From Branchiostoma floridae (Eukaryota > Chordata > Leptocardii > Amphioxiformes > Branchiostomatidae), in NCBI RefSeq assembly GCF_000003815.2, contig NC_049989.1, positions 19,871,870-19,935,869 on the forward strand: a stretch of 64,000 nt of DNA, in the 5' to 3' direction. The position numbers and the translations under genes were made by a program. The notes under the pieces were generated by a model. That model saw nothing but the letters and a program-made list of their open reading frames with translations. It was not told the origin of the DNA and did not search any database. Positions 33,539 through 56,341 of this stretch are shown here, one piece after another (positions within the stretch are counted from its first letter, which is position 1; each line of letters opens with the position of its first letter).

Positions 33539-35914
33539 CTATTCTGTCCCAGCTGTAGCCTGGGTCTGTCCTGTCTCTACTGTAGCCTGGGTCTGTCCTG
33601 TCTCTACTGTAGCCTGGGTCTGTCCTCTCTCTACTGTAGCCTGGGTCTGTCCTGTCTCTACTGTAGCCTGGGTCTGTCCTGTCTCTACTGTAGCCTGGGT
33701 CTGTCCTGTATCTACTGTAGCCTGGGTCTGTCCTGTCTCTACTGTAGCCTGGGTCTGTCCTGTCTCTACTGTAGCCTGGGTCTGTCCTGTCTCTACTGTA
33801 GCCTGGGTCTGTCCTGTCTCTACTGTAGCCTGGGTCTGTCCTGTCTCTACTGTAACCTGGGTCTGTCCTGTCTCTACTGTAGCCTGGGTCTGTCCTGTCT
33901 CCACTGTAGCCTGGGTCTGCCCTGTCTCGACTGTAGCCTGGGTCTGTCCTGTCTCCACTGTAGCCTGGGTCTGTCCTGTCTCTACTGTAGCCTGGGTCTG
34001 TCCTGTCTCCACTGTAGCCTGGGTCTGTCCTGTCTCTACTGTAACCTGGGTCTGTCCTGTCTCTACTGGAGCCTGGGTCTGTCCTGTCTCTACTGTAGCC
34101 TGGGTCTGTCCTTTTTCGACTGTAGCCTGGGTCTGTCCTGTCTCTACTGTAGCCTGGGTCTGTCCTGTATCTACTGTAGCCTGGGTCTGTCCTGTCTCTA
34201 CTGTAGCCTGGGTCTGTCCTCTCTCTACTGTAGCCTGGGTCTGTCCTGTCTCTACTGTAGCCTGGGTCTGTCCTGTCTCTACTGTAGCCTGGGTCTGTCC
34301 TGTCTCTACTGTAGCCTGGGTCTGTCCTGTCTCCTCTGTAGCCTGGGTCTGTCCTGTCTCTACTGTAGCCTGGGTCTGTCCTGTCTCTACTGTAGCCTGG
34401 GTCTGTCCTGTCTCTACTGTAGCCTGGGTCTGTCCTGTCTCTACTGTAGCCTGGGTCTGTCCTGTCTCTACTGTAGCCTGGGTCTGTCCTGTCTCTACTG
34501 TAGCCTGGGTCTGTCCTGTCTCTACTGTAGCCTGGGTCTGTCCTGTCTCTACTGTAGCCTGGGTCTGTCCTCTCTCTACTGTAGCCTGGGTCTTTCCTGT
34601 CTCTACTGTAGCCTGGGTCTGTCCTGTCTCCACTGTAGCCTGGGTCTGTCCTGTCTCTACTGTAACCTGGGTCTGTCCTGTCTCTACTGTAGCCTGGGTC
34701 TGTCCTGTCTCCACCGTAGCCTGGGTCTGTCCTGTCTCTACTGTAGCCTGGGTCTGTCCTGTCTCTACTGTAGCCTGGATCTGTCCTGTCCCGTTTGTAG
34801 CCAGGTTTTGTCCTGTAGGCTGGGTCTGTCCTGTCTCGACTGTAACCATGGTCTGGCCTGTCCCGCCTGTCGCCTGGTATTCTCCCGTCTCGTCTAGATC
34901 TGTAGCCTGGGTTTGTCCTACAGATCCTGCAGAAAGACTTGTTGCGCTGATGGTCTGTATCGTTGTCATTGTGTCCTGTTTACAGCAGAGCATCCTCTTC
35001 AGTTGGTTGCGAAAGTTTCTTCCAAGAAGAGCGTAGAGAAACGGGTTTGCCACTGAGTTGAACACAAGGAAGGAAAGCGCTATAGATACACCGGTTATAT
35101 TGTAGTTTTTGTTCGGATCAAATGAATGAATGAGAAAAGACATGATATAGAAAGGAAGCATTGTGACGAGAAAGAAAATTGTCACGACGAACACAACGAG
35201 AAACGCCTGGTCACCCGACCTGGTCTCTATCACGGCCAGACGGCGAGACCGCCGCACTTGGATCAATATGAGGATGTACAGAGGGATTATAATACAACTG
35301 GGCAAAACGTAGAGGAACAAAAAGGACAAGAGCAACATGACAAAGAAGGGATGACTGGCATCAGACGATTCAATCTTTAACATGACACACGAGGCTCCAG
35401 TGTACAAACTAGCGCCTGTGAAAGTCCAGTCTTCGGTGACAACGTTCCTGGCGATCGTGTCCATAACTGCAGCCAGGACGGCCACCATCCACACCAGAGC
35501 ACTGATCCTTCGCGAGTGTTTCACGGTCCCGTGTTGTCTGCTGCTCAGGGGGTTTGTTATCGCCCTGTAGCGTTCCACGGCGATGACTGTCAGCAAGAAG
35601 ACGCTTGCAGAGCCAAGGAAAACCACGAAGATACGGCCGATGTCACAGCTTCGCATGTAGGACAAACTCAAACCTGAGGACCCTTCCTGTGGCGCAGAAG
35701 GTGGTTCGGAAATGCCAACTATGGACTGGATGAGGGCGAGGAGGCAGAGAGCGAAGTCAGTCGCCGCCAGATTAGCCACGTACACGTTGCAAGCAGTCCG
35801 CATGGCGGGGTAGCGTGTCACGATGAACAAGATGAGCAAGTTCGCCAGCATCCCTATGGCAGAAATGCAGCAGCGAGAAACGTTGGCCGTAATATCCGCG
35901 TCCTCTTCATCCAT
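33539..35914 (-). CDS. Intronless class A (rhodopsin-like) GPCR with giant repetitive cytoplasmic tail
   Basis: A 791-aa single-exon ORF. I chose the ATG at 35914 (AAAATGG context); further upstream the frame is open only from a TTG. The N-terminus is short, with an NVS glycosylation site (residue 11). Seven hydrophobic segments follow. Hallmarks are ANLAATD in TM2, Cys90 before TM3, ERY at 114-116, a second Cys at 176, LPFYIMSF in TM6 and NPFLY at 290-294, then CC at 310-311, a possible palmitoylation site. The look is of a peptide-type receptor, but I cannot name the ligand. From about residue 345 to the stop, the tail is built of nine-residue ATVETGQTQ repeats, about 46 copies. Neither human HNF1A nor CUSTOS has this gene as a neighbour, as far as I know, so it appears to be inserted in an otherwise conserved block. 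Confidence 0.9.
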   Translation of the reverse strand: MDEEDADITANVSRCCISAIGMLANLLILFIVTRYPAMRTACNVYVANLAATDFALCLLALIQSIVGISEPPSAPQEGSSGLSLSYMRSCDIGRIFVVFLGSASVFLLTVIAVERYRAITNPLSSRQHGTVKHSRRISALVWMVAVLAAVMDTIARNVVTEDWTFTGASLYTGASCVMLKIESSDASHPFFVMLLLSFLFLYVLPSCIIIPLYILILIQVRRSRRLAVIETRSGDQAFLVVFVVTIFFLVTMLPFYIMSFLIHSFDPNKNYNITGVSIALSFLVFNSVANPFLYALLGRNFRNQLKRMLCCKQDTMTTIQTISATSLSAGSVGQTQATDLDETGEYQATGGTGQTMVTVETGQTQPTGQNLATNGTGQIQATVETGQTQATVETGQTQATVETGQTQATVETGQTQVTVETGQTQATVETGQTQATVETGKTQATVERGQTQATVETGQTQATVETGQTQATVETGQTQATVETGQTQATVETGQTQATVETGQTQATVETGQTQATVETGQTQATEETGQTQATVETGQTQATVETGQTQATVETGQTQATVERGQTQATVETGQTQATVDTGQTQATVETGQTQATVEKGQTQATVETGQTQAPVETGQTQVTVETGQTQATVETGQTQATVETGQTQATVETGQTQATVETGQTQATVETGQTQATVETGQTQVTVETGQTQATVETGQTQATVETGQTQATVETGQTQATVETGQTQATVDTGQTQATVETGQTQATVETGQTQATVERGQTQATVETGQTQATVETGQTQATAGTE
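33545..34790. repeat. Coding 27-bp minisatellite in GPCR tail
   Basis: The plus-strand unit is GTAGCCTGGGTCTGTCCTGT followed by CTCTACT. It recurs about 46 times with few substitutions (for example CTCTCC, TAACC for TAGCC, TCGACT). The unit is a multiple of three and no indel breaks the frame, so the minus-strand protein repeats ATVETGQTQ. The opposite strand is also open across the array. Confidence 0.97.
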
Positions 35915-38661
35915 TTTTAAAAGCTGTACCGACAGTACATTAGATCGCCATTTAGGATTTAGAACTTTGTTCCAACACAAAAAGTAAACGCATCGAAGTC
36001 GACAATCCTACTGCAGCCTGTTCGGTGACGTTATACCAGCTGGTGACGCGTCAGCAATTGGACAAAACTGCAAGGACGACCGGTTAACCTTACAACATAA
36101 GATCGCACGACGTTCAACATTTATGAGGCCTCCGTTTGATGGTTCATTGGTCTGTGAGATGCAGTTTTGCCGTTCCTTGTGTGTATGCAGCTATGAGTCA
36201 GGGTGCTCTCTGCTATTTATAAGCGACAGACGTCCCATCATCTTCTTGTGTCACGATGTCCCTGCTAAGATCCAACCATTGCCGCAATTTTGCCTGAAAG
36301 ATAAGGAAAAATTATGGCACAGATAAACTACAAAATATACATACATGTACAATGTATATCTATCTATTATATTGCGGAGCCAGAGCCGAACCTCTGCTTG
36401 GAGAGTACCACACGTTTAGGTTACAACTTCTGCACGTCTAACGTTAACCGTAAGCGTTGCTTAATGAGGATACGTCTACAGTACTTGGTGATGACAACGA
36501 GTTCTACACTACGGTAGTTCGAAGGAAAAATGAATAGTTTACTAGTTATTTTGTACACTACATGGAGTTGTTCGTACAGAGTCTGTCAGCTTGGTTCTGT
36601 AATATGTACCATTTCCAGTTTATCTTTGTCTTTTTTACTGTAAGGGTCCCATGCTGTTTTAGTAGTACGTGCCGCTCAAAACCCAGAAAAACAGTTCGAC
36701 CTAAACTAAACAAGTGACACGAGCTACAATTGGATGGATGAGTAACCATGACCGTCACACAGAATGAACCAGAATCAAAGACCCGTGGCGCGAGGGTTGC
36801 CTGTTCGCTGTTGTGATAAACAACACAATGACAATACTTTGCGCTCGTTGAATTCTACCTTAAACTGGCCAAGAATTTTGCCACGGGCAACAGCAGCAAG
36901 GAAGTACTCCCCGACCGTGACCTGGTCTACACTACAGTTTGATTCTAATAAACATATAACGTTAAGCACGGAAAAATCCACAGGAACCCTAGTCCTTTCT
37001 ACCACTACTGAGAGGGTCTTGTTCAAGTTAGACCTTGTCGATTGTGTTCAACGCTACAGGTTGTACCGTACGGTACGGTACGGACATATTCGTCATTAGA
37101 CAGGTGTACGACATTGAAAATGCCTGAGGCGTTCCTTGGACAGTCATGGATGTGCTGTACGGCATTCAGCTGTCGTATGATAAAAATATATTACAGGAGA
37201 ATGAGTAGGTCATTGTCAACGGTCGGCTTTGTGAGTCTTGTTTACTACAGAAAATCGCACAAAGAATGTGACACCACCTTAAACATGACACACCGTTGTC
37301 GTTGAAGTTTTTACCTCTTTCGTATTCCGCCAGAGATCCGACGTCTCTGTGCGTTACAGCATGATTTCTCACTAGAACGCAGAAGTGCTAGGGTCAAACT
37401 TACCTTCGGTTGCAACTCATAACTACCGATTGTTGGCCATCATACGCACAAAAACCTTCGCCCCAGTACTGCATTCCAGTTGTGGACACGGATCAGATCT
37501 AGAAACGCTTTGTTGATTACCTTCGCGAAGATTGTGTTTCCGGGTGTGCGCGTCTGTTTATCTGTGAACAGAATAACTCTAGAAGTTGTGGATGGATCTT
37601 GACGATATTTGTAATGTTGGTTAGGGTTCGTAAAATAAAGAAACGGTTAGATTAGAGCCCCCAAGCGACATTCTAAGGTATTGCGGCGGAACTTCCGTGT
37701 TTGGTACCTCGTATTCTAGACATGATTTTCGAACGGTAGATTGCTCTTGTGTTAGGAAAGATGGGATAGACGTTTGGGCCGGCTAGCAACTTTCTTTTGA
37801 ACTGCAGGGGGCGTTTTAGTTGCAGGCATTGAAATCTGATTTACTTGGATTTCCATGATTTTTTTAGTTGTGCTTAACTTTGAACGTAATGATATGTGAA
37901 TTATGCAAGATAAGGATTTGTAAAAGTAATGAAGAAAATTCATATTGGATTGTGCTAAATGACAGTAACTTCATTGCCCGGAGGCTCTTAAGATGTGCTG
38001 GATACGCTTGCATGCACACAAACAGACCCAAACAACATTCCTCCATTTACACTTACAACATAAGGACACTGTGGCAATGCCACAATAGCAGTCCTGCAAT
38101 TTTGACCAAAATAAGAAAAATTGTTGTTAAAAAGGTTGTGGAAATGGCTGTCAATCACATGTGTGGAAGTTACATAGCCTCCGTCCTCAAACAGGCCTGC
38201 TTTTTTTTTTTTTTAAGGGCATTTGTCATAAGAGAATGTAGCCTAGTCAACGTTGAAAATCACGAACTCCCATTTAAAATTTAAAAAAAAAACAGCCCTG
38301 TTCGAAGAAAAAACAGATTGAAACAAAAAATGGAAAACTAGAATAGGCATCTTTATTTTCCAAAGACAGAGAAAAAGGAGCTTTTTTTGGGATATCTTTT
38401 CTAAAATTGTCATCTCAGGTAATACCCTTGTGATGGATTGATCAAGGAAAGAAAAAACATAAATGACAAAAAAAAAAAAACGGATTGACAGCTTAAGTTC
38501 AAACACAAATTGATACAGCCCCATCAAAGAGAAATCAACTTTTAATAAGAGTATAACAATATTGTCACAAACATAAGAAAACTGTCAATTGACGTTTACT
38601 TTTTGTCTACAAATGTATATAGAGTAAGTTATCAAAAGCCAATTTCTGGACTATATCATAT
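35915..38661. other. Intergenic region between GPCR and CUSTOS
   Basis: It holds the GPCR 5' flank and the CUSTOS 3' flank. I find no recognisable gene. A GTACCGTACGGTACGGTACG stretch sits near 37065. A TTTATT at about 38352 (AATAAA on the minus strand) is a plausible CUSTOS poly(A) signal. Confidence 0.5.
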
Positions 38662-52931: not shown

Positions 52932-55900
52932 TCAACCTGAGTTATCCAAGTACAACTTCAACAGCTCCCCGTACCGCTGCCCCAACTCCAGTGCAAAAGC
53001 CCGCCTGTCGTCGTCGTTCCACGTCTTGGAACGCTTCTGTTCCTCCTGCATCGCTTTCAGGCTCAGCAGCCGGACGTCAAAACTGACCAGCCCGACCTCG
53101 TGCTCATCTTCCTCCCGCAATAAGGCTTCAAACATGCGGTAGTTGTGCTCCAGCGCTCCGGGGACTAGCGCGCGGGCGGTGTAGGGCAGAGGGCGTTTTT
53201 CTCCCAGGTGATGGACGTGGAAGTGAATTTCAACAAGACTCTCATCGTCTACATCCACGTCCTGAAAGTAGAAGACTTTTCGGCAGTGTCGCACGAACGT
53301 GGAGCTGTTTTTGTAATCAGACTCCTCACACCAAGCTTCATTCGATGTTTCTTTGGCCTTAGCTTCGACGTTGACAGCAAGACGCTCGCCCGGGCTATGG
53401 TTAGGAACATCGTGGAAGATTACGTCCAGAATGGAGACAGCCAAGACGTGTTCGCTACCGTCTTTCTCCTCCTTCCCTATCTTCCTCCACCCAAGATCTA
53501 CCATCGCGTCAATCTCTTCGCCGTGGTGCGTAGCGATTTGTTCACAAGCCTCACCCAGCTCACGTCTGTAGGATGTTTGGTTTGGGGCGGTCTTCTCTTG
53601 GACGAAGACTTTCAGGACATCGGCGAGATGGAAAGGCGCGGGGTCTTGAGTTTGCTGGACCACTTCTTGAGCTTGCTGAAGCGGCGACACCAGGGCCAAG
53701 GCGGGTGTCAGCAGCTGGAAGACATGCGGGACTTTGGACGGAGGCTCCCCGTTGTTACGCTGTATCGGTCGTCCATGAAGACTGTCATGTGCCACATGGA
53801 GTGCCTTGAGTACCGTGGTGGCTAGATAAGGCGCTATCTCGATTCTTGGCACCTCTGAGGCGACGAGAAACATCGACGTACCGTCTCCCACAACGTAATG
53901 TGGGAAACCGTCGTCGTCGGTAGGCTCCAAGATCAAGTCATAGATGTAGTCATCGGCATTTTCGGCAGTAGCAGGGTGCTCCTCTAACACACTGACCGGA
54001 GTCGGGTGTGGCTCTCGGTTCTTGAGGGACAAGACGGTCGTTCCTTCCTCCATCTTGGTAACTCCAAGGCGAGAGAGAGTCGGCACCAGGTTAACCAGCG
54101 TCCTGGGAGACACAGCAGCGAGCCCGTGGCCGTCTTCAGACTTGTGTCCTGTTGCCGTCACAAAAGGATGGGTTTCCGTAAAACTGAAGGAGCAACCGTT
54201 GATGGAGTACAAGAGACGCCCCTTCCTCCTTGGGGTGGAGACGACGGCGACTCGTCTTGGACCCTGCAGCGTGAAGACGTCTTGGCCCACCTCGACGGAG
54301 CGGATGGGAAGAAGCGTCGTCCCGTCTGCCAGGAGAACGATCGTGTCTCGGGAAAAACAGCTGGTGAATATGTTACCCCCTCCTCCCCCACCGCCGCCGC
54401 CCCCACTCGTACGGTACCCTCTCCCTGGTTGCCCATCTGCTGTAAACTCGAAGGAGTTCTCTTCCTTCATCATTGTCGGAGGCGCGGGGTATGGACCAGG
54501 GGTGATGACAGTGATGGGTACTGTCTTCAAGATTCCGTTTGCAGAATCACCTTCGATGTCCTGGTGTGTGATTGCCGCCGGGTTCATCCAGGCCATGTAG
54601 CTTGTCCAGCTCCCCACTCCTACCTCCGGTGGGATTGGCAGCTCCTTGCTGCTCAGCTGTTTGATGATGCCGTCTATCTCGTCGTTGCTGGCGCCTAGCA
54701 GGTGCAGTTTTACCCAGTGGTGGTACAGCTCCCACGCTGCGTCTGTCCACATACCTTCTGCCGCAATAGCCCTCTTTGCGGTTATCCAGGCATCCGATGT
54801 CAGTGCTGATACGTAATGCTGCTTCGCTGATGCTTTATCTGTTATCATGTGGTATGTTGTTTTGATAAAGGTGTCGCTGAAAACCTTGGCGTAAAAGAGC
54901 ATAGAGTGTGTCTTGAGCTCGGTGTTTTTGTTGTTCACGGCATTGTTGATGTCGTCCGATTTCAGCTGCTTGCGCAGGTCTTTGGTTAGGTTGTACATGG
55001 CCTGGCACAGGGCTGCCACGGAAAAGTCGGACCACCAGTTGTTGTCGAGGCCGGTGAGGGAGGTGTCTCCCTCGTAAGGTGCTGAGCTGTGGTTGGGGAA
55101 GAAAATATCAACAAACCTGTCTCCGCTCCCGAACATCTCAGTGTGGCGTCCCGGTGTGGAGCTTTTCAGTTTGCTGACGAGGGCACTCCGGGCCGGCTTG
55201 CCGGCGTCGTTCCCTCCAGTAGTCGGGAGCTCCCCAAACAGCTAAAAGACAGGATGGAAAGGTACAACATTTGAATAGAAAGTTTATTTGGGTTTGTTTT
55301 GTCTCATGTCGCAGCTTGAGTCCACTCAGAGTAGACTCCGCCGAAGTCGACTTGGACTCTACAGTGACGTTATAAACAAAAATTTTGGGTACTTAAGTGC
55401 CCTCCCGTGTGTAAACAGAACGCTTCGTGGCCGGGGCCGAAAACGCATGCAAACCTAGCCATAATGTACCGGGATGTCTTTTGACTGGATAACCACTTGC
55501 AACGTGATAGAATGGCAAGCACATGTTCTAAAAAGTAATCGCAAATGTAAATAATAAAAAAGCGTTTTGGCGTCAAAGTCTGACAATAGGCGCTCTAAAA
55601 GATGATTTATTATAGACAGCGCAAGACGCCTCAGGTGTGACTGTTGGCCACAATCTCATTAAGTTTTTACAAAGGGCTGACTTGCCTGTATAGTCGGGAT
55701 CACAAGGTCAGATACCATAACAGTTGAACGATCACAAATAATATGTCTGACGCTCTAAAGTCTGTAAACCCCTGGCAAAATTCGTTGGTGTGTATTATTA
55801 GATCTGTACAAAACACAGAGTGTTGTTAAGCGCACAATAGAGAGGATGCTATCATAGTTAGGTATTTGTCTGAAACCCAAGCTGTATGAAGTTGTCGCCG

Positions 55901-56341
55901 CGCCGCGCAATGCGATTTTCAGACTACCTTAAGTTTATCCACCTTTCCAGTGATGAGTAGTAAATCACTTAGTGGATCAACGACTGGTCTCAAAAGTGTA
56001 TCCCTCTGATACTTTGAGATAAAAGTCAAATAGAAGTGGATAACCTCAAGCCACCCATACACACTCATGCCTTAGCAGTGGGCTTAAATATATTAAGTTC
56101 TAAACGGGAAGTATGCCGCTTCAGCGTCTTTTCTGAAGATGTAGCGTGAGTGTGTACAATTAGTCTGAGTTTTTCCAGTACTTTTTGCCAATAACTTGAG
56201 ATAAAATCAATTTTCAATCAATTTTTTGACAAAATACAATGATTATCGCATTTCTATATTTTTGTCCACACCTACCTGTACCACGGTATCGTTAGGGATG
56301 GCGGCGATTGCCTCCGAAACTCTGGCATACAAGGCGTCCAT
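52932..56341 (-). CDS. Hint-domain (Hedgehog/intein-type) protein of unknown function
   Basis: Two exons, 56276-56341 and 52932-55241, give 791 aa. The intron is GT-AG and phase 0; the first exon adds MDALYARVSEAIAAIPNDTV. Residues 1-290 or so form a largely helical, Trp/Tyr-rich region that I do not recognise. A linker of ten glycines (about 302-311) leads to SCFSRDTIVLLADGTTLLPI, with Cys at about 317. This is the Hedgehog Hog/intein start, with the nucleophilic Cys, followed by the TxxH block FTETHPFV (Thr about 377, His about 380) and the late block YIYDLILE...HYVVGDGTSMFLVA. The His-Asn that ends true inteins is absent, so any autocatalysis should stop at N-terminal thioester cleavage, as in Hedgehog. 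About 300 residues follow that I do not recognise. No N-terminal signal peptide is seen. Most of the protein is on one exon, which may reflect retroposition or lateral origin. Confidence 0.85.

Follow-up and report, generated by a model that had tools for sequence, protein, structure and literature searches.

Why does an amphioxus carry an intracellular-looking protein built around a Hint domain? The gene lies at 52932..56341 on the minus strand of a 64,000-nucleotide stretch of Branchiostoma floridae DNA (contig NC_049989.1, positions 19,871,870 to 19,935,869; hereafter the window). An earlier reading made from the sequence alone (the sequence-only reading) did not recognise its architecture, which appeared to be an oddity of this genome. 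The comparison corrected this: judged by sequence, the layout of N-terminal domain, Hint and tail is that of a bacterial protein family of ~800 amino acids (aa), here termed B. In bacteria B is paired with a second gene, A, and homologues of both are present in the animal. The interest of the locus beyond the earlier claim is that an animal has kept half of a bacterial operon pair.

The B family is patchy, with members in what we take, in part, to be cyanobacteria, Bacteroidota, Pseudomonadota, Bacillota and Actinomycetota. Four records were listed by a tblastn search of 'plasmids'. Two of them, in Gloeothece PCC 7822 (E 1e-36) and Pantoea At-9b (E 1e-27), are relatives of full size, and the other two do not rise above chance. 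Scanning of bacterial contigs with four sequences, bacterial and animal, gave 10 more loci from 88 pattern matches; when the animal protein was the sole query, no locus was confirmed. Five of the loci belong to Methylococcaceae (two), Chitinophaga, Spirulina and an unclassified proteobacterium; the other five, in Paenibacillus, Rhizocola, Burkholderia, Actinocrinis and Saccharopolyspora, form subfamily II, which is nearest to the animal protein. Four of the latter were 34-37% identical to it over about 490-640 columns, and Saccharopolyspora was 27% identical over 798. The family is rare: at E up to 1e-20, it was held by 1/396, 1/197, 3/249, 1/292, 2/398 and 1/345 genomes in six samples, which may overlap and for which scoring was confined to the few best candidates in each genome. 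Because the six seeds are included in these counts, three holders are new. The window protein was unmatched in 'phages', and no member was confirmed in three viral-contig scans, which, relying on short peptides, may overlook members that have diverged.

A homologous gene A was found just upstream of B, on the same strand, in 15/15 bacterial B loci, in one of them on weak evidence. No third gene was similarly conserved: among frames of at least 90 aa around 12 loci, cross-matches occurred only within the Methylococcaceae pair, plus two weak L016-L019 matches. Complete A proteins, about 1,300 aa long, have a helical part, a number of hydrophobic segments, perhaps a beta-trefoil (weak matches) and an Ig-like end. 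Pfam searches of seven A proteins gave nothing beyond this end, which scored above the cutoff in one, below it in two and was absent from four. To judge from its sequence, A likely inserts into membranes. No description of the A-B pair was found in the literature searched, including passages of PMC8195603 and PMC4284660; subscription journals, preprints and protein databases lay outside the scope of that search. Two bacterial A-B pairs are carried by large plasmids, both loci having come from a plasmid search, and one of these pairs adjoins an integrase and a transposase.

The animal genome (513 Mb, 431 contigs) contains at least three copies of B (four matches, two being pieces of one copy) and at least four of A (five matches, two again pieces of one copy). 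On contig C156, A (413287-416862, minus strand) and B (436912, plus strand) are about 20 kb apart and divergent; on C11, A (9756923-9760216, minus strand) and B (9781483, plus strand) show the same arrangement and spacing. By simple arithmetic, a given B would fall within 25 kb of any of four A genes with a chance of about 4 in 10,000, although the two proximities may share one origin by duplication. The window B is homologous to the bacterial family along its length and has A elsewhere in the genome, not adjacent. Two further A copies (L008 and L009, C11:18.61 and 18.63 Mb), separated by about 15 kb, are on opposite strands and point outwards; their dS of 0.20 indicates that they duplicated recently. 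Beside them no B was detected, the DNA around them not having been read.

Trees were built with IQ-TREE from 13 B rows and 14 A rows and rooted at the midpoint; composition varies among several rows, the B set includes one partial row, and the Saccharopolyspora A row is long. The animal copies were monophyletic (support 100/99 for B and 100/100 for A) and branched next to subfamily II of the bacteria (97/93 and 100/98 at the fork, respectively), away from subfamily I. The first branch among the animal copies was, in both trees, the copy at 9.8 Mb on C11. This pattern fits an acquisition and a duplication that A and B underwent together, and we infer that the transfer ran from bacteria to animal. 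By the Nei-Gojobori method, the ratio of nonsynonymous to synonymous substitution rates (dN/dS) between the window B and the C156 copy was 0.21 overall, 0.19 in Hint, 0.20 in the C2-like part plus tail and, in the linker, 0.59. When the window B was compared with the pieces of the third copy, the ratio was 0.18 and 0.16, with dS near saturation, and A paralogues gave 0.17-0.43. A paralogue dN/dS of about 0.2 indicates that the gene is in use.

The window gene has two exons, with GT-AG borders and a splice predicted from the DNA, and encodes an open 791-aa protein; all its features are on the minus strand. Exon 1 (56276..56341; residues 1-22, MDALYARVSEAIAAIPNDTVVQ) is open up to a CAG/GTAGGT donor. 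The phase 0 intron (55242..56275) runs from GT to AG, and the open frame of the C156 paralogue has the same start residue (LFGELP). Exon 2 (52932..55241) supplies residues 23-791 and the stop as a 769-codon open frame. It begins with an all-helical domain (54522..55241; residues about 23-262) that is conserved with bacteria by alignment and was modelled by AlphaFold2 with a predicted local distance difference test score (pLDDT) mostly of 70-95, apart from a single ten-residue block at 48. The fold search, which barely covered this part, listed no match for it. Before the Hint cysteine, the motif NSFEFTADGQPG (54423..54458) is near-unchanged in subfamily II bacteria and both other animal copies; a different stretch is conserved at this place within subfamily I. 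The ten-glycine run described earlier as a linker is present (54375..54404; residues 302-311) five residues before Cys317, but it is not conserved: the alignment showed none in the C156 paralogue or the bacterial rows, and the C11 9.8-Mb paralogue has GHHGGG. The Hint domain (53847..54359; residues about 317-487; Cys317 codon 54357-54359) is followed by a largely helical linker of partly low confidence (53460..53846), a beta sandwich predicted to have the C2 fold (53061..53456; residues about 618-749) and modelled C-terminal helices (52935..53060). The flanks had been called unrecognised. This holds for Pfam, which gave no significant match on either side of Hint, but not for the tail with its C2-like predicted fold. 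A Kyte-Doolittle analysis, which is not a signal-peptide predictor, showed no hydrophobic segment, in agreement with the earlier statement; from its sequence, B looks intracellular.

The assignment to Hint was upheld by predicted fold, sequence and alignment. The core has the position-1 nucleophile Cys317, the block B motif T377xxH380 and no C-terminal His-Asn, as the sequence-only reading had stated. Cys, His and Asp are kept in every covering row, bacterial and animal. In place of the C-terminal His-Asn the window protein has VASE, and Asn is absent in 18/18 covering rows; the missing splicing C-terminus would favour the expected N-terminal cleavage over splicing. Hedgehog as the nearest relative did not stand. 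In the fold comparison BIL and several inteins scored above Hedgehog, and among solved structures the VMA intein PI-SceI was nearest by sequence (family-profile match, E 8.4e-11). The Hog profile PF01079 was not listed for the window protein and reached at best 20.0 bits against a cutoff of 29.7 among the relatives scanned. The top Pfam match was Vint (PF14623), for which the core scored 24.7 against a gathering score of 27; paralogue P0008 (30.7) and relative L021 (31.4) passed it. Two bacterial members passed the Pfam cutoff of Hom_end_hint (PF05203). In BFVD, model ma1bd892320f0 is matched at E 1e-4 to 1e-6 by several phage proteins with a Hint annotation, presumably through its Hint part.

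We consider it probable, at roughly 0.6, that an ancestor of the animal acquired the bacterial A-B cassette of which B is a member, that duplication followed there, and that Hint processes B, which works with a membrane-inserting A. Cleavage, A-B interaction, membrane action and role are what we infer beyond the data. Cys317 would attack the preceding peptide bond to form a thioester, and the N-terminal domain of ~316 residues would be either freed by hydrolysis or transferred to a nucleophile. What is left, Hint and the C2-like part, may stay at membranes, with the C2-like part as a holder. A would insert into membranes, and processing of B probably arms, anchors or restrains it. The pair could serve as a cell-autonomous defence or conflict module; this role is suggested by the patchy distribution, the two plasmid loci and HINT precedents in PMC3482391 and PMC12373286. 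More tentatively, a chordate may have captured a two-protein bacterial machine whole and retained it inside its cells as a multi-copy module inherited together. Self-cleavage of B would then unleash or anchor A, a membrane-inserting effector, and so provide a switch for cell death or against microbes that has no relation to gasdermin, MACPF or inflammasomes.

Several results weigh against acquisition of a cassette that acts in this way. The nearest A copies found, those at 18.61 and 18.63 Mb, are 1.3 Mb from the window's B and none was found in the window (best E 1.5), so adjacency has been lost at this B. The third B copy (L003, C11:9.78 Mb) is frame-broken inside Hint (L003 about 1844-1911), which may reflect a pseudogene, an assembly error or a polymorphism. 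Two of the 15 bacterial loci are close relatives (Methylococcaceae L012 and L014, DNA 94.5% identical). The predicted model of A is poor (pLDDT 54, predicted template modelling score 0.37). When six proteins were scanned against PADLOC, the sole match was to an intein-like 'homing endonuclease', at the start of B's Hint, neither of the two A proteins included being matched; thus, nothing there favours defence. PADLOC, NCBIfam and PHROGs together yielded only intein-like starts and weak matches for the proteins scanned.

It is possible, although we think it improbable, that B's Hint is a conjugation engine, in which a nucleophile on A or a lipid attacks the Cys317 thioester and the N-terminal domain becomes attached, as in Hedgehog with cholesterol. 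The missing Asn for the C-terminal step, the long part after Hint with its C2-like predicted fold of an often membrane-bound kind, and the partner gene in every bacterial locus found would agree with this, and the pre-Cys stretch conserved by subfamily fits a functional end of the N-terminal product. However, no sterol-recognition region was identified, no acceptor is known, and plain hydrolysis is simpler. Rather doubtful is a degenerate, structural Hint without cleavage, which would make B a scaffold or immunity protein for A. The TxxH Thr is indeed Ser or Ala in several relatives, a further point against processing by Hint, and many Pfam scores are near or under the cutoffs; however, the invariant Cys, His and Asp and a constraint on Hint equal to that on the rest of B (dN/dS 0.19) speak against degeneration.

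An A-B pair ancient in eukaryotes, passed from them to bacteria or left as a vertical remnant, is unlikely. Because eukaryotic sampling consists of this animal genome, the pair may be spread more widely among eukaryotes or have been transferred in another direction, which also counts against capture from bacteria, and the tree root is a midpoint. However, the pair is more deeply diverse in bacteria, with two subfamilies and several phyla, A and B are adjacent in all 15 bacterial loci found, and the animal sequences make up a single shallow clade. Contamination of the assembly by bacterial DNA, despite the clear similarity to bacterial proteins, was rejected with hardly any probability left to it, by the intron, the site within a 23.5-Mb contig, the paralogues elsewhere, the single animal clade, and an identity to any bacterial protein of 37-38% at most in the alignments made.

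Movement of single bacterial genes into animals is well known. Transfer, retention and duplication of both partners of a conserved operon, under purifying selection, would, if true, be much rarer. B also defines a Hint family that is accompanied by a partner at every bacterial locus found; an animal Hint function other than Hedgehog or intein thereby becomes directly testable. A-B may also indicate a membrane-acting module, so far unrecognised, in bacteria and chordate cells alike. Elsewhere in the window, an 822-aa open frame (33539-36007, minus strand) has a C-terminal tail made up of 9-residue TQATVETGQ-like repeats, several dozen in number; by its motifs we take it to resemble a rhodopsin-type G-protein-coupled receptor.

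Compared with known systems, B shares block A including Cys1 with PI-SceI and Hom_end_hint, but it has no endonuclease match, no C-terminal His-Asn and no conserved host protein around Hint. An intein was rejected, since the C-terminal His-Asn and Cys/Ser/Thr are missing. BIL domains of type A have a C-terminal His-Asn, which B does not, and type A was likewise rejected. Unlike the BIL domains compared (Tetrahymena BUBL1 BIL2, 6y75; Clostridium BIL, 2lwy), whose flanks differ from those of B, B carries a C2-like tail and a partner gene. Unlike Hedgehog and Hog proteins, it shows no sign of a signal peptide by Kyte-Doolittle, no Pfam match to the Hedgehog signalling domain and no PF01079 match at cutoff. 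The Vint of VWA-Vint proteins is thought to be processed inside the cell (Burglin 2008, PMC2362128). B resembles them in its top Pfam match, Vint, but lacks a VWA match: the window protein had none among its listed matches, which ran to E 10, and its N-terminal domain was modelled as all-helical. HINT also occurs in immune-type lancelet proteins combining CARD, AIG1 and HINT (PMC12373286); B, without a CARD or AIG1 Pfam match, differs from these in architecture. In polymorphic toxins HINT is an autoprocessing peptidase, and the bacterial toxin domain Ntox18 was laterally transferred to Branchiostoma, according to PMC3482391. No secretion leader or known toxin domain was found in B, neither flank of which has a significant Pfam match and the tail of which is C2-like by predicted fold; unlike the HINT of these toxins, that of B lies in mid-protein and its partner is encoded by a separate gene.
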